This document shows positions 1,107-39,818 of a stretch of 41,048 nucleotides of DNA, in pieces. Position 1 is the first letter of the stretch. Each line of letters begins with the position of its first letter. The notes below the pieces were generated by a model. That model did no database searches. It was not told where the DNA came from and saw only the letters and a list, made by a program, of their open reading frames with translations. The position numbers and the translations under genes were made by a program. Source of the stretch: a virus; IMG/VR virus record IMGVR_UViG_3300037042_001541, positions 1 through 41,048 of that record; one strand, given 5' to 3'.

Positions 1107-1165
1107 TGGCCTTCTTCTTAGGACTTTTGGCTAGCGTCTTGGTCGCCATGCTATTTGACGATTGA
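1103..1165 (+). CDS. Putative 20-aa hydrophobic leader-like peptide
   Basis: It starts at GTG 1103 or ATG 1106 after a clear GGGAGGT ribosome binding site (1092-1098). The peptide is one short membrane helix (AFFLGLLASVLVAML) ending in Asp-Asp. It is the last rightward frame before the convergent primase-helicase gene, whose 3' end it overlaps by 15 bases. The good ribosome binding site and coupling argue for translation; the very short length argues for caution. Confidence 0.4.
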   Translation: MMAFFLGLLASVLVAMLFDD

Positions 1166-3445
1166 GAGCGCAGGCTCCACGCCCTCGGCCATGCGCCGAA
1201 GCTCGGAGCGAGCGATAGTGGCGAACTGGGGGTGAGCGTAGACGTGTTTCTTGGTCGGTAACTCACGCGAGTGCAGCCGACCACAGTCTACCCACCCCGC
1301 ATCCCGTAGCGCGTGCATGAGCGCCGCTGGCACCACCCTGACACCACCAGGCGCGAGGCTTTGCAGCCGGTCGCAGATGGCGTAGAAGGGGGAGGCAATG
1401 ACGCCACGGGCGAAATCGCCTTGACGCTGGCGGATCATTTCGACAAGGAACGACTCGGCGGTACTCATCGCCGATTCAATCATGATGATCTTGGCCTCAG
1501 TCATGGCGGGGGTTGCGCCTGGGTTGAACGCTGACACATCGCGGGCATCAAGCCACGCGGCGACGGCTTCAAAGCCGCCAGTCTTGTACCAATCCCACAT
1601 CACCTCGGCTTCAAACGAAGACATCTTCTCGGCGTCTGACCAGACGACGAACCAGCGCCGGTCGTCGCTAGGCAAGGATATGGCCGCACGCTCGTTGCTG
1701 AAGGCGAGGACGAACACGCGATTTAAAGCATCGTAGGGGTGTAACCCCTTGCGGTGGATCGTGAGCAGCTCAGGCGGCGCTGCGATGATGGGCTTGAGTT
1801 GATTTTCAAGCGCCCGACGATCCTTAGCGTCGGCTTGGCGCAGCTCGTTGATGACCATGACCTCAGCCTCAAGCGCATAGCCCCACTGTGAGGACAGTTC
1901 CTCGTTGCGAACGAGGCTGATGTTGGTGTTGCGCTCACCGCCGATAGACCAGAGGAACGGCGCCCAAAGGGTGTCCTTGCCGCTGCCAGGTCGTCCCCCG
2001 TGCAGGATGGCGTGGTTGACCTTGCGGTTCGGGTGTTGACGCTTGAAGGCCATCACATCGAAAACATGGCTACGCTCGGCGGGGTCGGGAATCATACGCT
2101 CGGCGTGCTGAAGCCAGAGGCTGACATCCCCGGCAGAGGCCGGTGGGCGGGCATCGCGCCAGCGGTTGGCGTAGACCAAGCCAGCGCGGGAAACAAGGGT
2201 AGACTCGCCAGCGGCGAAAGTGACGCCGACCAGGGCGCGAGCGCCCATCGCTTGGCGGTTCTCATCAAAGCAAATGGACGCCTCGACGCGGCGGTTGTTG
2301 TGAATGGACTGGCAGGTGATATGCCGAAAGGTTGCGTTAAAGGTCGCACGCGAGAGTTGCCGCCGATCCGTCAAGTCAAAGTAGGCATCATCGTCCTGAA
2401 GGTAAGCGAACCGCTCAAACCATTCAGTTTTCTGCACTCGCCCCATCTCGCGGGCTTCAACTTCCTTGATGACGCGCTTGGCCTCATCGGGGAAAGCATC
2501 GGTCGGGGTGATTTGCGAAAGCGCGGCGCTCATCTTCTTGGCGAGCAGGTCATCCCGCAGCCCGTAGCCCGCGGCAGGGCCGCCCTGATCTTCAACCCAC
2601 CGCAGGTACTTCTCGCTGTTCCAGTCGCCGCAATGGCCGTGGAAGCAGGTATAGGCGCGGTTGACGGGGTGGTACCGCCCGTCGCCCCTGCCGTCGGTGT
2701 GCGATGCGTGGTTGGGGCAGAGGACGCCGTACCAGCCCTCGTTGTTGGCACGCTCCAAGAGCTGCCCCTGCTCCTGCACCCACTCCAGCACCGTGTCCAT
2801 GCCGTCATCGTCTAAGGCGATGCCCGCGTGGGTTGAGGTGTCGGCGGGGGCGGGGGTGACATTGAAGGCGGCGATGAGCTGCGGCAGACTGAACTCGCGC
2901 TCAGGGTAGAACTCCGCCAGCACTGCGGCGAAGTCATCGCGCCCAGGCTTGAGGTTGATGCTCCCCGGGATGCGGAAGTTGCGGACGGGGTTGATTGCGC
3001 CGGGGTCGGTGAACCCTGCCTCGGCTATGGCCTTGATGGCGGCGGCGAACTCCCCGCGCCGGGGCTGATCGTCAAGCGCGAAGGTGTAGCCCCACTGATA
3101 GTTACCGGGTGAGGTTTCCATCTTCCAGGTGGGTTCAATGGGTGGGATCTTGGCCTTGGTGCCTACATCATCCAGCACCATGAAGGCGACCCGCTCGCAG
3201 TTGGCGGCAGATGCGGATACGCCGTCGGTCATGCGATCCACGATGAAGCAGCCGGTGTTGCAGTACCAGGCGCCGGGGGTGGTGAAGTTGGCCTTCCCCG
3301 GCAGGTACGACGGCCAGACATACCGGGGAAGCCCCGCGCCATCAAGCATCGGCTGACCGGCGTAAACCTTCGGCTTCTGACGGACGAACAGGATGACTTC
3401 CCCCTCGGGGGCAATCTGTGTAAGATAGTCGGTGAATCGTTGCAT
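1151..3445 (-). CDS. Primase-helicase (primase-like N-terminus, zinc motif, SF3-type helicase)
   Basis: This 764-residue protein is the likely replication initiator/primase-helicase. The N-terminal part (about 60-190) has an acidic LDD near residue 92 and the motif NFRIPGSINLK near 156-166, typical of phage/plasmid primase-polymerase-like domains. A zinc-binding cluster follows (C243, H246, C267, H271/C272). The helicase domain has Walker A GRPGSGKDT (about 484-492), Walker B VMVINEL (about 529-535), a sensor-type SNE near 583-585 and a conserved DDRRW near 594-598, as in the D5/P4-like SF3 group. A purine-rich ribosome binding site (GAGAGAGAGGA) precedes ATG 3445. It is the last gene of the leftward replication cluster. 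The assignment to primase-helicase is firm; the exact family is inferred. Confidence 0.85.
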   Translation of the reverse strand: MQRFTDYLTQIAPEGEVILFVRQKPKVYAGQPMLDGAGLPRYVWPSYLPGKANFTTPGAWYCNTGCFIVDRMTDGVSASAANCERVAFMVLDDVGTKAKIPPIEPTWKMETSPGNYQWGYTFALDDQPRRGEFAAAIKAIAEAGFTDPGAINPVRNFRIPGSINLKPGRDDFAAVLAEFYPEREFSLPQLIAAFNVTPAPADTSTHAGIALDDDGMDTVLEWVQEQGQLLERANNEGWYGVLCPNHASHTDGRGDGRYHPVNRAYTCFHGHCGDWNSEKYLRWVEDQGGPAAGYGLRDDLLAKKMSAALSQITPTDAFPDEAKRVIKEVEAREMGRVQKTEWFERFAYLQDDDAYFDLTDRRQLSRATFNATFRHITCQSIHNNRRVEASICFDENRQAMGARALVGVTFAAGESTLVSRAGLVYANRWRDARPPASAGDVSLWLQHAERMIPDPAERSHVFDVMAFKRQHPNRKVNHAILHGGRPGSGKDTLWAPFLWSIGGERNTNISLVRNEELSSQWGYALEAEVMVINELRQADAKDRRALENQLKPIIAAPPELLTIHRKGLHPYDALNRVFVLAFSNERAAISLPSDDRRWFVVWSDAEKMSSFEAEVMWDWYKTGGFEAVAAWLDARDVSAFNPGATPAMTEAKIIMIESAMSTAESFLVEMIRQRQGDFARGVIASPFYAICDRLQSLAPGGVRVVPAALMHALRDAGWVDCGRLHSRELPTKKHVYAHPQFATIARSELRRMAEGVEPALSIVK

Positions 3446-3467: not shown

Positions 3468-3495
3468 GCCCCGGCCTGACCGCCGGGGCTTTTTT
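3468..3495 (+). terminator. Intrinsic terminator oriented rightward
   Basis: GCCCCGGC (3468-3475) and GCCGGGGC (3482-3489) form a perfect 8-bp GC stem with a six-base loop, followed at once by six T on the plus strand. This is a textbook rho-independent terminator for rightward transcription, although the flanking genes run leftward. On the minus strand the same hairpin is preceded, not followed, by the homopolymer. Confidence 0.7.
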
Positions 3496-3877
3496 ATTTG
3501 ACGGCTACCAGCCCTTGCCGATGCAGCTTGCGGTCGGCGGCGTTCTCGCGCGTCGTTCCATACGTCAAATTGTCAATGTGGTTGTTTGTTTTTTGCCCAT
3601 CTAAATGCCGTATTTCGCAGCGTTCCGTCATTTGTGGGCGCGCGCCTTCAAAAGCGTTTAACACCAACTCATGTACATACACAGTTTTTGTGACCCCAGC
3701 GCGCGCCAGCTTAACGCTTAAATAATTGTTAGTGAAGAATTGCTTTATGTCGCGGCCTTTATATGTCATGCCTTTGTGTCGGCCATAAGGAACCTGCCGA
3801 GTAAGCGACCGCACGTTTCCGTAGTTACTTACTTCGTAAAAACCTTCATACCCCGGTATAGCAGTCCACATTTCCAT
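3494..3877 (-). CDS. HNH homing endonuclease with NUMOD4-type DNA-binding motif
   Basis: This 127-residue protein begins with a NUMOD4-like segment (W..IPGYEGFYEVSNYGNVRSL pattern, residues about 3-25) and ends in an HNH nuclease core (EIRHLDGQKTNNHIDNLTYG). Both are hallmarks of free-standing phage homing endonucleases. I chose ATG 3877, two bases after the polymerase stop, because GGAAGG lies at a good distance; an in-frame start at 3913 would overlap the polymerase. The coding sequence is visibly richer in A+T than its neighbours. It sits directly between polymerase and primase-helicase, a usual niche for homing endonucleases that cut intronless polymerase alleles. Confidence 0.88.
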   Translation of the reverse strand: MEMWTAIPGYEGFYEVSNYGNVRSLTRQVPYGRHKGMTYKGRDIKQFFTNNYLSVKLARAGVTKTVYVHELVLNAFEGARPQMTERCEIRHLDGQKTNNHIDNLTYGTTRENAADRKLHRQGLVAVK

Positions 3878-3878
3878 G

Positions 3879-5828
3879 TTAGCCCTTCCCGTATCTTTCC
3901 ATCGTCTTGACATCGGCCTTGAGCGGTAAGCCCGTAGCCCATGCGGGTGCGGTGTTCATAACCCCATCCAGATGTTCGGCTGCGGCGGCGACGGCGGTGT
4001 TAGGCACGTCTAGCACGATTTCGTCGTGGATATGCAAAGTAATAAACTCCAGTTGTCGAAGCGCAGCGCGCAGCACATCGTTGGCCACGGCTTGGGTGAT
4101 GTTCTCGCAAGCAAGCCCTTTCCACAGCCGCGCACGGGGCCATTCGGTGGCATCGGCGGCGGGTTTCCATGAGGCTTTGAGATACGATACCCCATCCTTT
4201 TCGATTCGTGCAAACGGATAGCAAAGAATCCGTCCGCTAGGTAGCGCGTACCAAAGGTGGGTGCCGTCGGCGTAGTAGACGATGCGCCCGACGCGGATCT
4301 CCGTGCCTGGGTTCCGAAGCGCGGTCATGTAGCCGTCCTCCAGCTTCTGCCAAAAGCGCACCGCCCACGGGTTAGCGCGGCGCCACGCCTTGACAATCCG
4401 CTCGGCATCTGACTCAGGGAGCGTAACCCCATAGTTCCGTGCCATCGCCGCGAAGGCTCCAACGCCCCCTGCGAAGCCAAGCGAGAGGATAGCGACCTTG
4501 CCTATCTGCCGCTGCTCGTCATCCACGGCGGCGGGGGTGGTGTTGAAGATGCCTGCGGCTTCGCGCTTGTAGATGTCGCCGCCAGCGCGGAACACATCTA
4601 AGACGGACTCCGCTGCGGGATCGGCTGAAAGCCACGGTGTCACCCGCGCTTCAATGGCCGACCAGTCTGCGACCACAAAGGTATGCCCCGGGGCGGGGAT
4701 GAGGGCGGGGCGGAGCATACCCTTGAGTACATCCGTCACCCGCTTGCCGTAAGCCGGGACGATGCTGTGCCCGCGCACCAGCGCCTGGCGCGCCCCTGCG
4801 GCGTCCTTGATGCACTTGCGGGTAAAATTGTGAACTTGCGCCCCGTAGGAGGATGCCCGACCCGTAGCCGCGCCGCCTGCGAACACGAACGCGCCCCGCA
4901 CCCGGTCATCATCCACATCGGCGAGGCTTCGCAGTCGCTGGAACTTGGCGACGGACGACGCCCAGAGGTCATCGGCGCACTGGATCATGTCGGCCACATC
5001 TGGGGGCACTTGCTCGGGGTCGGTGAGCGCAAGGAGGTTGGCACGCACGGTTTTGTCAATGGAATACTTCTTCTCGCCGTCCTTAAAAGTGACCATGAGC
5101 TTCTTGGCATCCTCGCCGACACGCGCTAGCACCCACTCACGCATCTTGGGGCTACGGACGGACTGGATCTCGCCGGTAGAGATTTCGGCTACGAGGGCTT
5201 CGATGTCTACGCGCTCGGCCTCGGCGTACTGCATAGCCGCATCGCAGAGTTCCTTGTCCACGCGCACGCCACGGTCGTTGATGCGCTCGTTCACATGGTA
5301 GTCGGCAAGTTCCTCGGGCGAGAGGTCACGCATGGCGAGACTGATTTCCCGCATGGTGCGAACATCCTGCTCGCAGTAGCCGATCATCTCGTCCATGAGG
5401 AACGGGTCGGTGTTGAAGGTGCCATCGGCGCGGGGGATGGAGAGCTGCCGGATGAGCTGCGAGCCGCGATGGTCTTTCTTCATCTTGGACGACACCGCAC
5501 GGCCTACATCCTCAAGCGAACCTGGGAGGCAGTTAGCCCGGGCTTGGGTCGCGGTGCAGTAGAACTGCTCCAAGCGGTGATTGGTCTGCGCCACATACCA
5601 AAGGATCAGGCGCTCAAAGGTCGCGTTGTGGGCGCGGATTTGGCCTTGGTGCAGCGCCACGCGCTCGGGGAACGGGAGCTTCGGCACCCATGTCTGCACT
5701 TCCTCATCGCCAAAGGCGTAGGACATACAGATGATTTCGGTCGAGAGGTCACGGGCGTAGTTGTAGACCCCGGCGGTCTTCAATCCGCACCGGCTACGGG
5801 TCTCGAAATCAATATAGAGAGTGGTCAC
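3879..5828 (-). CDS. DNA polymerase, family A (phage Pol I-like)
   Basis: This 649-residue replicative polymerase has an N-terminal 3'-5' exonuclease domain: Exo I DFET at residues 7-10, Exo II around HNATFE 67-72, Exo III YCEQDV 151-156. The polymerase domain has motif A VADWSAIEAR (385-394), motif B R440/K444 to about G455, and motif C HIHDEI (599-604). All catalytic acidic residues are present, so it should both polymerise and proofread. It lacks a 5' nuclease domain, as usual in phages. The start is GTG in a GTGA overlap with the methyltransferase stop. Confidence 0.96.
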   Translation of the reverse strand: MTTLYIDFETRSRCGLKTAGVYNYARDLSTEIICMSYAFGDEEVQTWVPKLPFPERVALHQGQIRAHNATFERLILWYVAQTNHRLEQFYCTATQARANCLPGSLEDVGRAVSSKMKKDHRGSQLIRQLSIPRADGTFNTDPFLMDEMIGYCEQDVRTMREISLAMRDLSPEELADYHVNERINDRGVRVDKELCDAAMQYAEAERVDIEALVAEISTGEIQSVRSPKMREWVLARVGEDAKKLMVTFKDGEKKYSIDKTVRANLLALTDPEQVPPDVADMIQCADDLWASSVAKFQRLRSLADVDDDRVRGAFVFAGGAATGRASSYGAQVHNFTRKCIKDAAGARQALVRGHSIVPAYGKRVTDVLKGMLRPALIPAPGHTFVVADWSAIEARVTPWLSADPAAESVLDVFRAGGDIYKREAAGIFNTTPAAVDDEQRQIGKVAILSLGFAGGVGAFAAMARNYGVTLPESDAERIVKAWRRANPWAVRFWQKLEDGYMTALRNPGTEIRVGRIVYYADGTHLWYALPSGRILCYPFARIEKDGVSYLKASWKPAADATEWPRARLWKGLACENITQAVANDVLRAALRQLEFITLHIHDEIVLDVPNTAVAAAAEHLDGVMNTAPAWATGLPLKADVKTMERYGKG

Positions 5829-7039
5829 TTCGTCACCTTGGCAATGCGCTCACCAATCCATCGCATGCACGGCACCGCCATGCTGTTGCCGAGGGCTTTG
5901 TAGCGGGGGCCGTCCGGTGCCTCGTCCTTTTTGCGCCACGGGATATTTGTATACCCGTCCGGAAAGCCTTGCAGCCGCTCGCACTCGGTCGGCGTGAGGC
6001 GGCGGACTTGCACGGCTACCATCACCGTTGGCCCGCTTGCATTTACGCTGCTGCCGGGGGTGCCGATGGTCGCCGCCACCTCGCCCGTGATGGCGCCGTT
6101 GTAGCAGTCGGTGCCGAGCGCCATTGACTGGGCAACGCCTAACATCCCACCAGCACGGCCAGCCACCCGCATGGTGGGGGCTAAATCTAAAGTCGCGTCG
6201 CGGCCATCGTCGTTGCGACTAAAAGCCACCGGCAGGGCAACGGCGGCTTGCTGCGATGTTGTCAATGCATCGCTGATGCTTGTGTCTCGAGCATCGGTCG
6301 GCAACTGCGAGGTTTGGGCGTTGTGATGGAAAGCCACCGGTTGAGCAACGGTGCCCTCAAAACCACCTCCGGCTGTCCTCGCCTTCAAACACCCGAACAG
6401 TTCGCGGCTAGCATTCTGCTCCTCGTCTATGCCATACGCAAAGCCATCGCTAACGCCTCGGGCAACGCCTTGCCCCTTTTCTCTGCTCGGCGCAGGATTC
6501 CGGCACACGCTTTCGGACTCAAAAAGAACCGCTGCGGCACCGGCCTGGTCTCCAAGACATCCGACAACGAACACACGGCGACGGCGCTGGGCCACTCCGA
6601 ACCATTGTGCGTCCAGCACCCGATAGGCCCACCCGTACCCCAGCTCCCCCAGCGCTGCGAGGAAGGTGCCAAAATCCCGTCCTCCGTTTGAACTGAGGAC
6701 ACCTGACACGTTTTCCCAAACAATCCATCGAGGCCGGTGACGTTCAGCGATTGCAAGAAACGTAAGCATGAGGTTGCCTCGGGGGTCATTAAGCCCTTTG
6801 CGGAGGCCCGCGACGCTGAAGGACTGGCAGGGGGTTCCTCCGACAAGAAGGTCAATTGATTCAAGATTCCACTCCTTGAATTTGGTCATGTCGCCGACAT
6901 TGGGGACATCGGGGTAGTGATGCGCGAGCACCGCGCTCGGGAACGGCTCGATTTCGCTGAACGCGACGGGCTGCCATCCCATGTGGTGCCAGGCAACGGT
7001 CGCGGCTTCAATGCCGCTGCAAACAGAAAGGTATCGCAT
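5825..7039 (-). CDS. DNA (cytosine-5-)-methyltransferase
   Basis: The 404-residue protein transfers a methyl group from S-adenosylmethionine to cytosine C5. Motif I (SVCSGIEAATVAW, residues 5-17), motif IV with the catalytic PC (GGTPCQS, C71), motif VI (WENV, E109), motif VIII (AQRRRRVFVVG, 150-160) and motifs IX-X near the end (RRLTPTECERLQGFPDG, ALGNSMAVPCM) are intact. The variable stretch at about 190-340 would be the target recognition domain. The likely role is protecting phage DNA from host restriction. There is no good ribosome binding site: the start follows a terminator T-run by three bases. Confidence 0.95.
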   Translation of the reverse strand: MRYLSVCSGIEAATVAWHHMGWQPVAFSEIEPFPSAVLAHHYPDVPNVGDMTKFKEWNLESIDLLVGGTPCQSFSVAGLRKGLNDPRGNLMLTFLAIAERHRPRWIVWENVSGVLSSNGGRDFGTFLAALGELGYGWAYRVLDAQWFGVAQRRRRVFVVGCLGDQAGAAAVLFESESVCRNPAPSREKGQGVARGVSDGFAYGIDEEQNASRELFGCLKARTAGGGFEGTVAQPVAFHHNAQTSQLPTDARDTSISDALTTSQQAAVALPVAFSRNDDGRDATLDLAPTMRVAGRAGGMLGVAQSMALGTDCYNGAITGEVAATIGTPGSSVNASGPTVMVAVQVRRLTPTECERLQGFPDGYTNIPWRKKDEAPDGPRYKALGNSMAVPCMRWIGERIAKVTK

Positions 7040-37586: not shown

Positions 37587-37772
37587 TTTGCTGGGGGTAA
37601 AAAAATTTCTCACGGCCCCACCGTAACAGTAATGACGTTTGCGTTGGCCCTACCCGGGGGCAGGGGGTGCCTGGTCGATGCTGTGGCAAAAAGGCAACGG
37701 CTGTGGCCTGGCCGCCACAAGCTGCGATCCGTTAGGTGTGGGCAGTCTGCTAGGGGCTAGCGACTGTCAGCC

Positions 37773-37835
37773 GACAGCCGACAGCCGACAGCCGACAGCC
37801 GACAGCCGACAGCCGACAGCCGACAGCCGACAGCC
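37773..37835. repeat. Nine tandem GACAGCC heptamers
   Basis: The heptamer GACAGCC is repeated nine times without error over 63 bases, preceded by one degenerate unit (TGTCAGCC). Open frames across it are only products of the repeat. It borders the iteron array and may be part of the origin or a length-variable spacer. Confidence 0.95.
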
Positions 37836-38003
37836 TCTAGCCGTAGGTTGTGGGCAATGTGGGCTATTCGTTTTAGATTGCCCACATTGCCCACACATAG
37901 CATCCGGCGTGGGCTTGAGGCATACGGCGTGGGCCATGTGGGCAATGTGGGCATAGCCCACAAAGTCGCAGCGCGTCGACGGCGCGAGTCCAACATGTGC
38001 TAG

Positions 38004-38012
38004 TTATCCACA
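38004..38012 (+). promoter_or_regulatory. DnaA box, perfect consensus
   Basis: TTATCCACA is an exact match to the bacterial DnaA box consensus (TTATNCACA). It lies in the gap between iteron clusters, five bases before a LexA box, so host DnaA may help to open the origin. Confidence 0.7.
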
Positions 38013-38016
38013 GGCA

Positions 38017-38036
38017 TACTGTATGCGTATACAGTA
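38017..38036. promoter_or_regulatory. LexA (SOS) box-like palindrome
   Basis: TACTGTATGCGTATACAGTA is a perfect 8-bp-arm palindrome with CTG-N10-CAG spacing. It agrees with the E. coli LexA consensus (CTGT-N8-ACAG, flanked by TA) at every defined base. It lies inside the candidate origin. Confidence 0.7.
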
Positions 38037-38308
38037 GTTCAGCCAATCCTCTTTCAACTTAAAAACATTGCCCACATTGCCCACAACCTCAGCCCCACGC
38101 TATAAATACAGGCATTTGAGCGTGGGCAATTCGGCCGAAAAGCATTGCCCACAATTCGACCCACAATGCCCACAAAAAACGATTGCTCCGAAACGGATTC
38201 AATTAGCAACAAAAAGGCTTGTAAGGTGTCCTATTACTATGTTGAGATTCGTACTACTGAATTGCCCACAAATCAAATCAAATGACCCACACTTTAGAGG
38301 ATACTAAA

Positions 38309-38554: not shown

Positions 38555-38600
38555 GCCGATGCGCCATTGCATCATTCACTACAATAAAGGATACAGTACA

Positions 38601-39326
38601 ATGCTTAACACAATTGCAATTCCGTTAAATGTGCTCCGTGCAACGCTCACGCACACCGCCGTTAAAGATATCCGGTATTACTTAAACGGGGTCTTTATCG
38701 ACACTGCACGCGGCAAGGTAGTAGCAACCGATGGCCATCGCATGATTGTGGTAGACGCTGAGACAGTGCGCCATGCCGTTATTCCGTCTTTCATCATTCC
38801 GGACGATTCAATCCGCGCCATGATGTCCGCCTATAAAGGCACGACCTGGGCGACTAGCTGCGCACCGGTAGATATCACGGTGACACTTGCCGATGTTCCG
38901 TCCGGCGGCGTGCGCGTGAACACGGGCACACTGGCAGCGCCTACGGGCACGGTAAATTTTAACGCCATCGACGGCAAGTATCCTGATTACAGCCGCGTCA
39001 TTCCGGCACCGGATCAGGTGGGCGCATATGCTTTTTCCATACTGAACCCCGATTATGTAGTGGACGCTATTGCCGCCGTTAAAATCCTCGCAGGTATCCC
39101 GGCAAAGAAAAGCGCCGCTATCCCGGTATGGACGCAAGGCGACCGGCCCGCGTTGGTCTATGGCCGTGATTCTGGCCCTAAGGCGCTAATCATCATCATG
39201 CCGATGCGTGACGATAGCGGCGCCGCTGGCATAATCGCAGCGGATAGGGCGCTAGATTCTACCCGCGCCGCGTGCCGTGCCGCGCAACCGGAAGCCGCGG
39301 CGCCCACCGTCGCTGAAGCCGCCTAA
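38601..39326 (+). CDS. Sliding-clamp-like protein, shortened DnaN (beta subunit) homologue
   Basis: The 241-residue protein closely follows the middle domain of bacterial beta clamps: VKDIRYYLNGVFIDT (21-35), VVATDGHRMIVVD (40-52) and IDGKYPDYSRVIP (123-135). Then LNPDYVVDAIAAVKIL (148-163) and ALIIIMPMR (195-203) match the last half of domain III, whose C-terminus in E. coli ends MPMRL. Domain I and about the first half of domain III are missing, and a 38-residue Ala-rich tail is added. ATG 38601 with AAAGGA upstream is preferred to an in-frame codon at 38559. It may tether a polymerase or interfere with the host clamp; whether it forms a ring is unknown. Confidence 0.8.
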   Translation: MLNTIAIPLNVLRATLTHTAVKDIRYYLNGVFIDTARGKVVATDGHRMIVVDAETVRHAVIPSFIIPDDSIRAMMSAYKGTTWATSCAPVDITVTLADVPSGGVRVNTGTLAAPTGTVNFNAIDGKYPDYSRVIPAPDQVGAYAFSILNPDYVVDAIAAVKILAGIPAKKSAAIPVWTQGDRPALVYGRDSGPKALIIIMPMRDDSGAAGIIAADRALDSTRAACRAAQPEAAAPTVAEAA

Positions 39327-39380: not shown

Positions 39381-39420
39381 CACTACAATTCGTTACAGTC
39401 AACTACAGGACACTACATCA
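39381..39420 (+). repeat. Four helically phased decamers with YTACA core
   Basis: The 40 bases before ATG 39420 are four 10-base units, each with a (C/T)TACA core at exactly 10-bp intervals (39383, 39393, 39403, 39413). The first unit also holds a TACAAT -10-like box. Ten-bp phasing places the cores on one face of the helix, as for cooperative protein binding. Confidence 0.6.
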
Positions 39421-39818
39421 TGACAACCGCAACTCTTGACCTCACCGCCGACATTATCAATGTGCGCGACATCATCGCCCGTTTTGAGGAATTGGAAAAC
39501 GATATCGAAAATTGCACGATTGCGACGGATGCGATGGACGCAATATCTGTTGCGCGAGAGCACTCCACCCTTGCCGCCATTCTTGATGACCTGAAAGGCA
39601 ATGGCGGCGACGAACAATGGCGCGGCGACTGGTATCCCGTCACGCTCATCTGCGATTCGTATTTCACTTACTACGCCCGTGAGATGTTGGAAGACTGCGG
39701 CACGATCCCGCGCGACCTTCCGTCATGGGTGGAGATTGACTGGGACGCGACCGCCCGTAATGTCCGCATGGACTACACGCCCGTCGATATCGACGGCGTG
39801 ACCTACTGGTACCGCTGA
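39420..39818 (+). CDS. Conserved phage/plasmid protein of unknown function, 132 aa
   Basis: The protein has an N-terminal helical part (IINVRDIIARFEELENDIEN) and a conserved C-terminal half (DEQWRGDWYPVTLICDSYFT, DYTPVDIDGVTYWYR). Proteins with this aromatic ending occur in phages, plasmids and integrative elements and are usually unnamed. The acidic composition recalls DNA-mimic antirestriction proteins such as ArdA, but I cannot establish this. ATG 39420 follows AGGA and the phased decamers; an in-frame start at 39363 would lie within the hairpin. Confidence 0.72.
   Translation: MTTATLDLTADIINVRDIIARFEELENDIENCTIATDAMDAISVAREHSTLAAILDDLKGNGGDEQWRGDWYPVTLICDSYFTYYAREMLEDCGTIPRDLPSWVEIDWDATARNVRMDYTPVDIDGVTYWYR

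Follow-up and report, generated by a model that had tools for sequence, protein, structure and literature searches.

Sliding clamps are taught as rings, and their pocket for clamp-binding motifs (the CBM pocket) is regarded as a universal docking site and as an antibiotic target. The bacterial beta clamp, DnaN (TIGR00663; PF02767), is a three-domain protein of about 360-400 amino acids that dimerizes head to tail, with domain I contacting the first half of domain III. Escherichia coli also has beta*, a short form of DnaN without domain I; beta* retains all of domain III and is made from dnaN. T4 gp45 and PCNA belong to the clamp superfamily and likewise have a peptide pocket on the subunit, with two full domains per chain in a trimer that depends on a loader. 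Loader-free viral clamps are also known (PMC9690074): the herpesvirus proteins UL42 and UL44 have the clamp fold but need neither a ring nor a loader to function. Their DNA-binding surface is basic, and they have no DnaN-type CBM pocket.

We analyzed a gene encoding a compact clamp-like protein, here called the mini-clamp, in a viral DNA record of 41,048 nucleotides (IMGVR_UViG_3300037042_001541), the whole of which we refer to as the window. The mini-clamp shares with DnaN the fold and sequence of domain II, the residues of the CBM pocket and the C-terminal MPMR, but it lacks domain I, the first half of domain III and the DnaN dimer interface. It resembles beta* in lacking domain I, and differs from it in being encoded by a separate phage gene. 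It has 1.5 domains (three modules) in place of the two full domains of gp45 and PCNA, and no match of the gp45/PCNA type was among the PDB matches listed. No sequence relation to UL42 or UL44 was seen. Its architecture is that of the proteins in PHROG 3007, which have a similar core length, and its C-terminal tail is longer than most of theirs.

The family is already known, in that its members are grouped in PHROGs and are often annotated as beta subunits. However, we found no functional or architectural study of the compact form in the open-access literature. What is new here is the pocket-retaining architecture, the evidence of selection and a correction of the RusA label that the family carries.

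An intact gene for a compact beta-clamp relative

The mini-clamp ORF is intact and open, and lies exactly where an earlier, sequence-only reading of the window had placed it (Table 1). An alternative ATG is present upstream and in frame, at 38559. We prefer the start at 38601 because of the family alignment and a ribosome-binding-like site, AAAGGA, that precedes it at 38585-38590. Promoter and terminator scans around the gene gave chance-level results only, and no DNA-level relatives were found in the phage collection.

Table 1. Coordinates of the mini-clamp gene, its modules and pocket motifs, and other features of the window
Feature	Position	Strand	Description	Secondary structure in the model (DSSP)
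Mini-clamp gene	38601..39326	+	241 aa; PHROG 3007, PF02767, AlphaFold pLDDT 87.7	
Module 1, first half of DnaN domain II	38601..38768	+	residues 1-56; beta-alpha-beta-beta-beta; E. coli DnaN alignment	E3-8 H9-16 E30-34 E39-43 E47-52
Module 2, second half of DnaN domain II	38769..39005	+	residues 57-135; terminates in DGKYPDYSRVIP	E64-67 H68-79 E91-97 E108-113 E116-121
Module 3, second half of DnaN domain III	39027..39212	+	residues 143-204; terminates in MPMR	H150-164 E176-179 E182-188 E195-199
C-terminal tail	39213..39323	+	predicted helix 207-228	
RYYLNG, pocket subsite I and adjoining loop	38673..38690	+	residues 25-30; E. coli R152-G157	
ATDGHRM, pocket	38724..38744	+	residues 42-48; E. 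coli 171-177	
DGKYPDYSRV, pocket	38970..38999	+	residues 124-133; includes E. coli P242, R246, V247	
NPDY, pocket subsite II	39045..39056	+	residues 149-152; E. coli N320 and Y323	
IIMPMR, pocket	39192..39209	+	residues 198-203; E. coli V360-R365	
Iteron-like array	37849..38270	.	8 exact TTGCCCACA copies, both strands, upstream of operon	
DUF5906 primase/helicase-like protein	1151..3445	-	PF19263 E 3e-10; phrog_1156 DNA primase E 2e-21	
Family A DNA polymerase	3879..5828	-	PF00476 E 1.2e-22; phrog_17 DNA polymerase E 4e-92	

Homology searches, with matches well above chance level, confirmed that this ORF encodes an intact, compact relative of the beta clamp, consisting of the entire domain II of DnaN and the second half of domain III. 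The sole Pfam match is the DnaN central domain, PF02767 (E 1.9e-6, mini-clamp residues 17-129). The NCBIfam model for DnaN, TIGR00663, matches with an E-value of 4e-11, but its score of 42.4 bits is below the cut-off of 137.65, so the equivalog threshold is not reached. The match to PHROG 3007 (E 1e-31) extends over mini-clamp residues 4-206 and over profile positions 2-188 of 190. As a single sequence, the mini-clamp matches residues 138-254 of the E. coli beta clamp in the PDB (E 3e-8), while a profile made from 59 relatives detects DnaN structures at E-values down to 1e-33. This profile aligns to all of domain II and resumes only in the last ~55 residues (7rzm 320-374), so that the first half of domain III has no counterpart in it. 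The claim that the protein comprises about 1.5 clamp domains therefore holds, as does the strong match reported in domain II and at the MPMR end, where the landmarks RYYLNG, ATDGHR, DGKYPDY, N..Y and MPMR are all retained.

The sequence-only reading had also estimated that about 120 N-terminal residues and about 75 residues inside domain III are missing. The first figure agrees with the absence of domain I (~125 aa); the second is slightly high, as the absent first half of domain III corresponds to ~60 aa (mapping ~55-65). At 241 aa, the protein thus does not have the three-domain layout of DnaN. The two missing stretches are those that form the head-to-tail dimer interface of DnaN, including I272 and L273. 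When these two residues are changed, DnaN is monomeric and unable to tether Pol III (PMC11139829). Because the loss includes these interface residues, a DnaN-type ring is very unlikely. The C-terminal tail is missing in many relatives, whose proteins stop at MPMR.

Predicted fold

AlphaFold, run with the family alignment, modeled the window protein with a pTM of 0.80 (for pLDDT, see Table 1), as three beta-alpha-beta3 modules followed by a C-terminal helix. In a Foldseek search with this model, all PDB matches listed were DnaN (E 4e-10). The sequence-only reading would have fallen if the predicted fold were unrelated to the clamp, and this is not what these results indicate. Superposition of the window model on DnaN is moderate (TMq 0.57, rmsd ~6), so the placement of module 3 and the closed pocket in this protein should be read as predictions.

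A shorter, tailless member of the family, L063, was modeled with a pLDDT of 88.4 and a pTM of 0.87. Compared with E. coli beta, this model has a TM-score (query) of 0.76, with ~256 alignment columns for its 198 residues, which is what an alignment that passes over the missing half domain should give. Because domain II by itself makes up about 0.6 of the L063 protein, the score suggests that part of module 3 is placed in the model where the second half of DnaN domain III sits. Many compact relatives are also present in a viral structure library, where they are annotated as beta subunits.

Retention of the CBM pocket

The most informative feature of the mini-clamp, which the sequence-only reading had missed, is that the retained parts are those that make up the CBM pocket. 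In E. coli beta, this pocket is formed by R152, L155, T172, G174, H175, R176, L177, P242, R246, V247, N320, Y323, V344, V360, M362, P363, M364 and R365 (PMC11139829). The window protein is identical to E. coli at 15 of these 18 positions, and two others are conservative changes (L177 to M and V360 to I), so that V344 alone differs (D).

The same tendency is seen across the family. Averaged over 117 compact relatives, retention is 89% at the 17 pocket positions that do not vary in cellular DnaN, versus 52% at 38 further DnaN-conserved positions of the same regions (p 0.003, in a test that counts positions as independent). Several of the retained "non-pocket" positions are neighbors of pocket residues, so this contrast is conservative. 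A column conservation test using 79 sequences gave a p-value of 7e-8. The residues of RYYLNG are 97-100% conserved in the 117 relatives, and the most highly conserved residues (D150, R152, Y154, L155, G174, P242 and P363 in E. coli numbering) are in the lining of the pocket or next to it. Beyond the pocket and its adjoining loops, no patch of comparable conservation was seen in the compact family. The residues that were kept thus point to docking, while those that were lost include the dimer interface, and we expect that the pocket would bind CBM peptides.

Distribution, selection and annotation of the family

Relatives of the mini-clamp were found in 37 records of the phage collection, including Bcep781 (gp15), BcepC6B (gp31), Shigella phage EP23 (gp08) and Acinetobacter phage 4316 (UKM17100). 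In the viral contig collection, two queries detected 86 and 263 relatives, respectively, of which at most 80 each were taken up. Among 129 distinct viral relatives, the frame is no longer than 300 aa in 120; seven are longer forms of 361-449 aa, and two are slightly over the limit (308 and 310 aa). A search of cellular genomes gave chromosomal dnaN loci, with full-length DnaN in 78 of 80, and these served as the comparison set. The window protein is a divergent member of the family, with a best identity found of ~40% and, more usually, 25-34%.

The absence of two DnaN blocks might suggest a degraded dnaN pseudogene or an assembly artefact, and a pseudogene with frameshifts was indeed named in the sequence-only reading as an outcome that would overturn it. 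However, intact ORFs of similar size are found in more than 100 distinct proteins from unrelated phages, including isolates. Moreover, the median dN/dS is 0.11, and the highest is 0.23 (35 independent pairs), which indicates purifying selection on the compact form. The compact family and its dN/dS lead us to dismiss this explanation with near certainty.

PHROG 3007 is labeled "RusA-like Holliday junction resolvase", and this label has been copied into phage records; depositors have named members "DNA polymerase III beta subunit" or "DNA Pol III b subunit fragment". Known members of PHROG 3007 match the same PHROG profile as the window protein. We considered whether the latter could be a RusA and rejected this, since it matches no RusA Pfam model and no other PHROG labeled as RusA. 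In Bcep781 (NC_004333.2), the true RusA is gp22, which is separate from gp15 and matches phrog_34 and phrog_140, and not PHROG 3007. One weak match (E 0.003) was seen between the BcepC6B mini-clamp and phrog_12598, which is also labeled RusA-like. Given that the members are DnaN relatives, the RusA-like label of PHROG 3007 looks wrong, and its correction exposes an annotation error that is spreading through phage records.

Replication genes of phages that carry a mini-clamp

The polymerase of the window belongs to family A, as had been claimed (Table 1). PF00476 detected such a PolA in 20 of 31 carrier records. With a profile of the carriers' own polymerases, 10 of 14 additional records were positive, and the 11 earlier negatives stayed negative. 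In total, PolA is present in 30 of 45 carrier records, with the caveat that some matches are weak or partial and that some records are possibly fragments. The 15 records without PolA include the deposited phage genomes Pseudomonas USP_25 and Vibrio 1.115.A (labeled partial). Pol III alpha, Pol B and the clamp-loader family PF13177 were each found in 0 of 29 carrier records, in searches whose controls were positive; a loader from the host would be present.

No canonical CBM was found in the window PolA by a motif scan. Among 15 PolA-type polymerases of carriers, there is likewise no consistent canonical CBM, as the two isolated loose matches are in different places. The well-sampled families of neighboring genes that include the window have no consistent CBM either. 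In the clusters of neighboring genes, only two motifs recur in large families, and we rejected both: QAALL, in the C-terminal helix of the DUF5906 protein, is recurrent but unconserved and is absent from the window, and QLPIY, at the start of TerL, is unconserved (QKPIY, QEPRY and QTTRY in relatives).

In four loci (Acinetobacter 4316, BcepC6B, L210 and L232), the mini-clamp gene directly follows polA on the same strand, overlapping it or within ~40 bases. In relatives of the window lineage, the mini-clamp gene is instead convergent with a DUF5906-polA pair ~2.5-5 kb away; in the window itself, this pair is at the opposite end of the record, an arrangement that fits a permuted genome. At least 20 relatives (e.g., loci L043, L034 and L029) have a DUF5906/primase-like protein linked to polA, and the DUF5906 protein is probably the replicative primase-helicase of the window lineage. 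Two further genes were observed beside these in the window: a homing-type endonuclease with NUMOD4 and HNH_3 (3494-3913, minus strand), between the DUF5906 and PolA genes, and a C-5 cytosine DNA methylase (5825-7039, minus strand; PF00145, E 1e-53), beside the PolA gene.

Possible functions of the mini-clamp

The explanation that we favor, although tentatively, is that the mini-clamp is a non-ring mimic of beta that grips CBMs and competes with the host clamp for host proteins. Such a phage-made mimic would have kept one complete CBM pocket and shed domain I and the interface half of domain III. As a soluble peptide-binding module, it could grip the CBM of host proteins of replication or repair, for which clamp-loader delta, Pol III alpha, accessory polymerases, MutS/MutL and RecBCD are candidates. 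It would compete for these proteins against the host's own clamp, while the phage genome would be copied by the phage PolA, which would need no beta. We infer a host-directed peptide mimic because the pocket is conserved, because the DnaN interface and a loader are absent, and because the polymerase has no evident CBM. The bound peptides are therefore more likely to be those of host proteins than those of the phage's own polymerase, and the mini-clamp presumably acts without encircling DNA. The selective retention of the pocket, with no equal patch elsewhere and with the I272/L273 half gone, is consistent with this explanation, as are the lack of Pol III alpha and PF13177 in carriers where PolA is frequent, the models of the fold (including that of L063) and the low dN/dS. 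Monomeric DnaN, in which I272/L273 are changed, has an affinity for delta ~50 times that of the dimer (PMC11139829), so competition with the host clamp is chemically reasonable. However, the contacts of delta with beta include a loop that is not part of the pocket (PMC11139829), and delta may therefore bind the mini-clamp less well. It is also important to consider that 15 carrier records are without PolA, as a phage that depends on Pol III or the loader would be hurt by their sequestration, and that the window model superposes on DnaN only moderately. The sequence-only reading had raised the possibility of a decoy for clamp-binding host proteins, with which the selective retention of the pocket is compatible; a pure decoy is disfavored, since no polymerase of their own was recognized in about a third of the carrier records.

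A PolA without a canonical CBM could still bind the mini-clamp in another way, and the position of the gene right after polA in four loci suits a polymerase accessory as well as a mimic. As an accessory, the mini-clamp would bind the phage PolA through a non-canonical contact and also DNA, as a monomer or dimer, and would raise processivity without a loader, in the manner of UL42/UL44. The frequency of PolA and the absence of PF13177 in carriers agree with this. Moreover, the compact family is less acidic than DnaN (median pI 6.6 versus 5.2; the window protein has a pI of 6.8 overall, and of 8.7 for residues 1-204, without the tail), and a lysine in the helix of module 3 is conserved in 72% of compact forms and not in DnaN. 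However, judging by pI, the family seems near-neutral and not strongly basic, no second surface that could hold a polymerase is conserved at the family level, there is no consistent CBM in PolA, and the mini-clamp also occurs in records without any recognized polymerase. We consider an accessory role somewhat less likely than the mimic. A ring of different stoichiometry, which had been suggested from the sequence, is improbable. It would place four subunits of 1.5 domains around DNA, with the lone module 3 of each possibly paired with that of its neighbor into a shared domain. The module count fits (3 x 4 = 12, as in the DnaN dimer), module 3 is without its natural partner half, and relatives that end in MPMR have no tail to cover it. 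Nonetheless, domain I and the interface-bearing half of domain III are both missing, so this ring is little supported; in addition, no loader was found, and roughly half of the DnaN-conserved positions other than those of the pocket have been lost. The poorest prospect, in our estimation, is that the pocket serves to bring host CBM proteins to the phage origin or primosome (Pol III where there is no PolA, and other enzymes elsewhere). This would account for mini-clamps both with and without PolA, and the gene is beside a candidate origin, with iteron-like arrays upstream in most window-type relatives (see below). However, no second binding surface was identified on the mini-clamp.

If the mimic hypothesis is extended to the whole family, there might be a widespread class of phage proteins in which a clamp has been reduced to a single CBM pocket, forming a non-encircling, loader-free hub or competitor that draws CBM proteins away from the host clamp while the phage replicates. 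We offer this generalization with even more reserve. In a clamp relative that is under selection and has the pocket but no DnaN ring interface, docking would be uncoupled from encircling. Either phages would then have a new means of interfering with the replication of their hosts, or their family A polymerases would have a helper that needs no loader. The mini-clamp is small, likely soluble, and likely suited to existing CBM-peptide assays.

Sequences flanking the gene

All 8 copies of TTGCCCACA in the window are inside the array upstream of the operon (Table 1), while 0.4 copies are expected across the whole window. This array is a candidate replication origin or operator. Similar arrays are common in window-type relatives: at least 5 copies of one 9-mer are present in 82% of their 1.5-kb upstream regions (n=33), versus 0.7% of 142 control stretches. 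The repeated 9-mer differs between lineages, with arrays at L014, L039, L048, L172, L174, L216 and other loci. These arrays are thus candidates for a replication origin with lineage-specific iterons. Beside the iteron region, at 37768-37845, the window has a perfect tandem repeat of a 7-base unit, CAGCCGA.

PADLOC gave no match to a defense system. Directly downstream of the mini-clamp gene, at 39420-39818 on the plus strand, is a gene for a conserved phage protein (phrog_25535, E 7e-44), whose product has a very weak likeness to an anti-restriction family (E 0.009).
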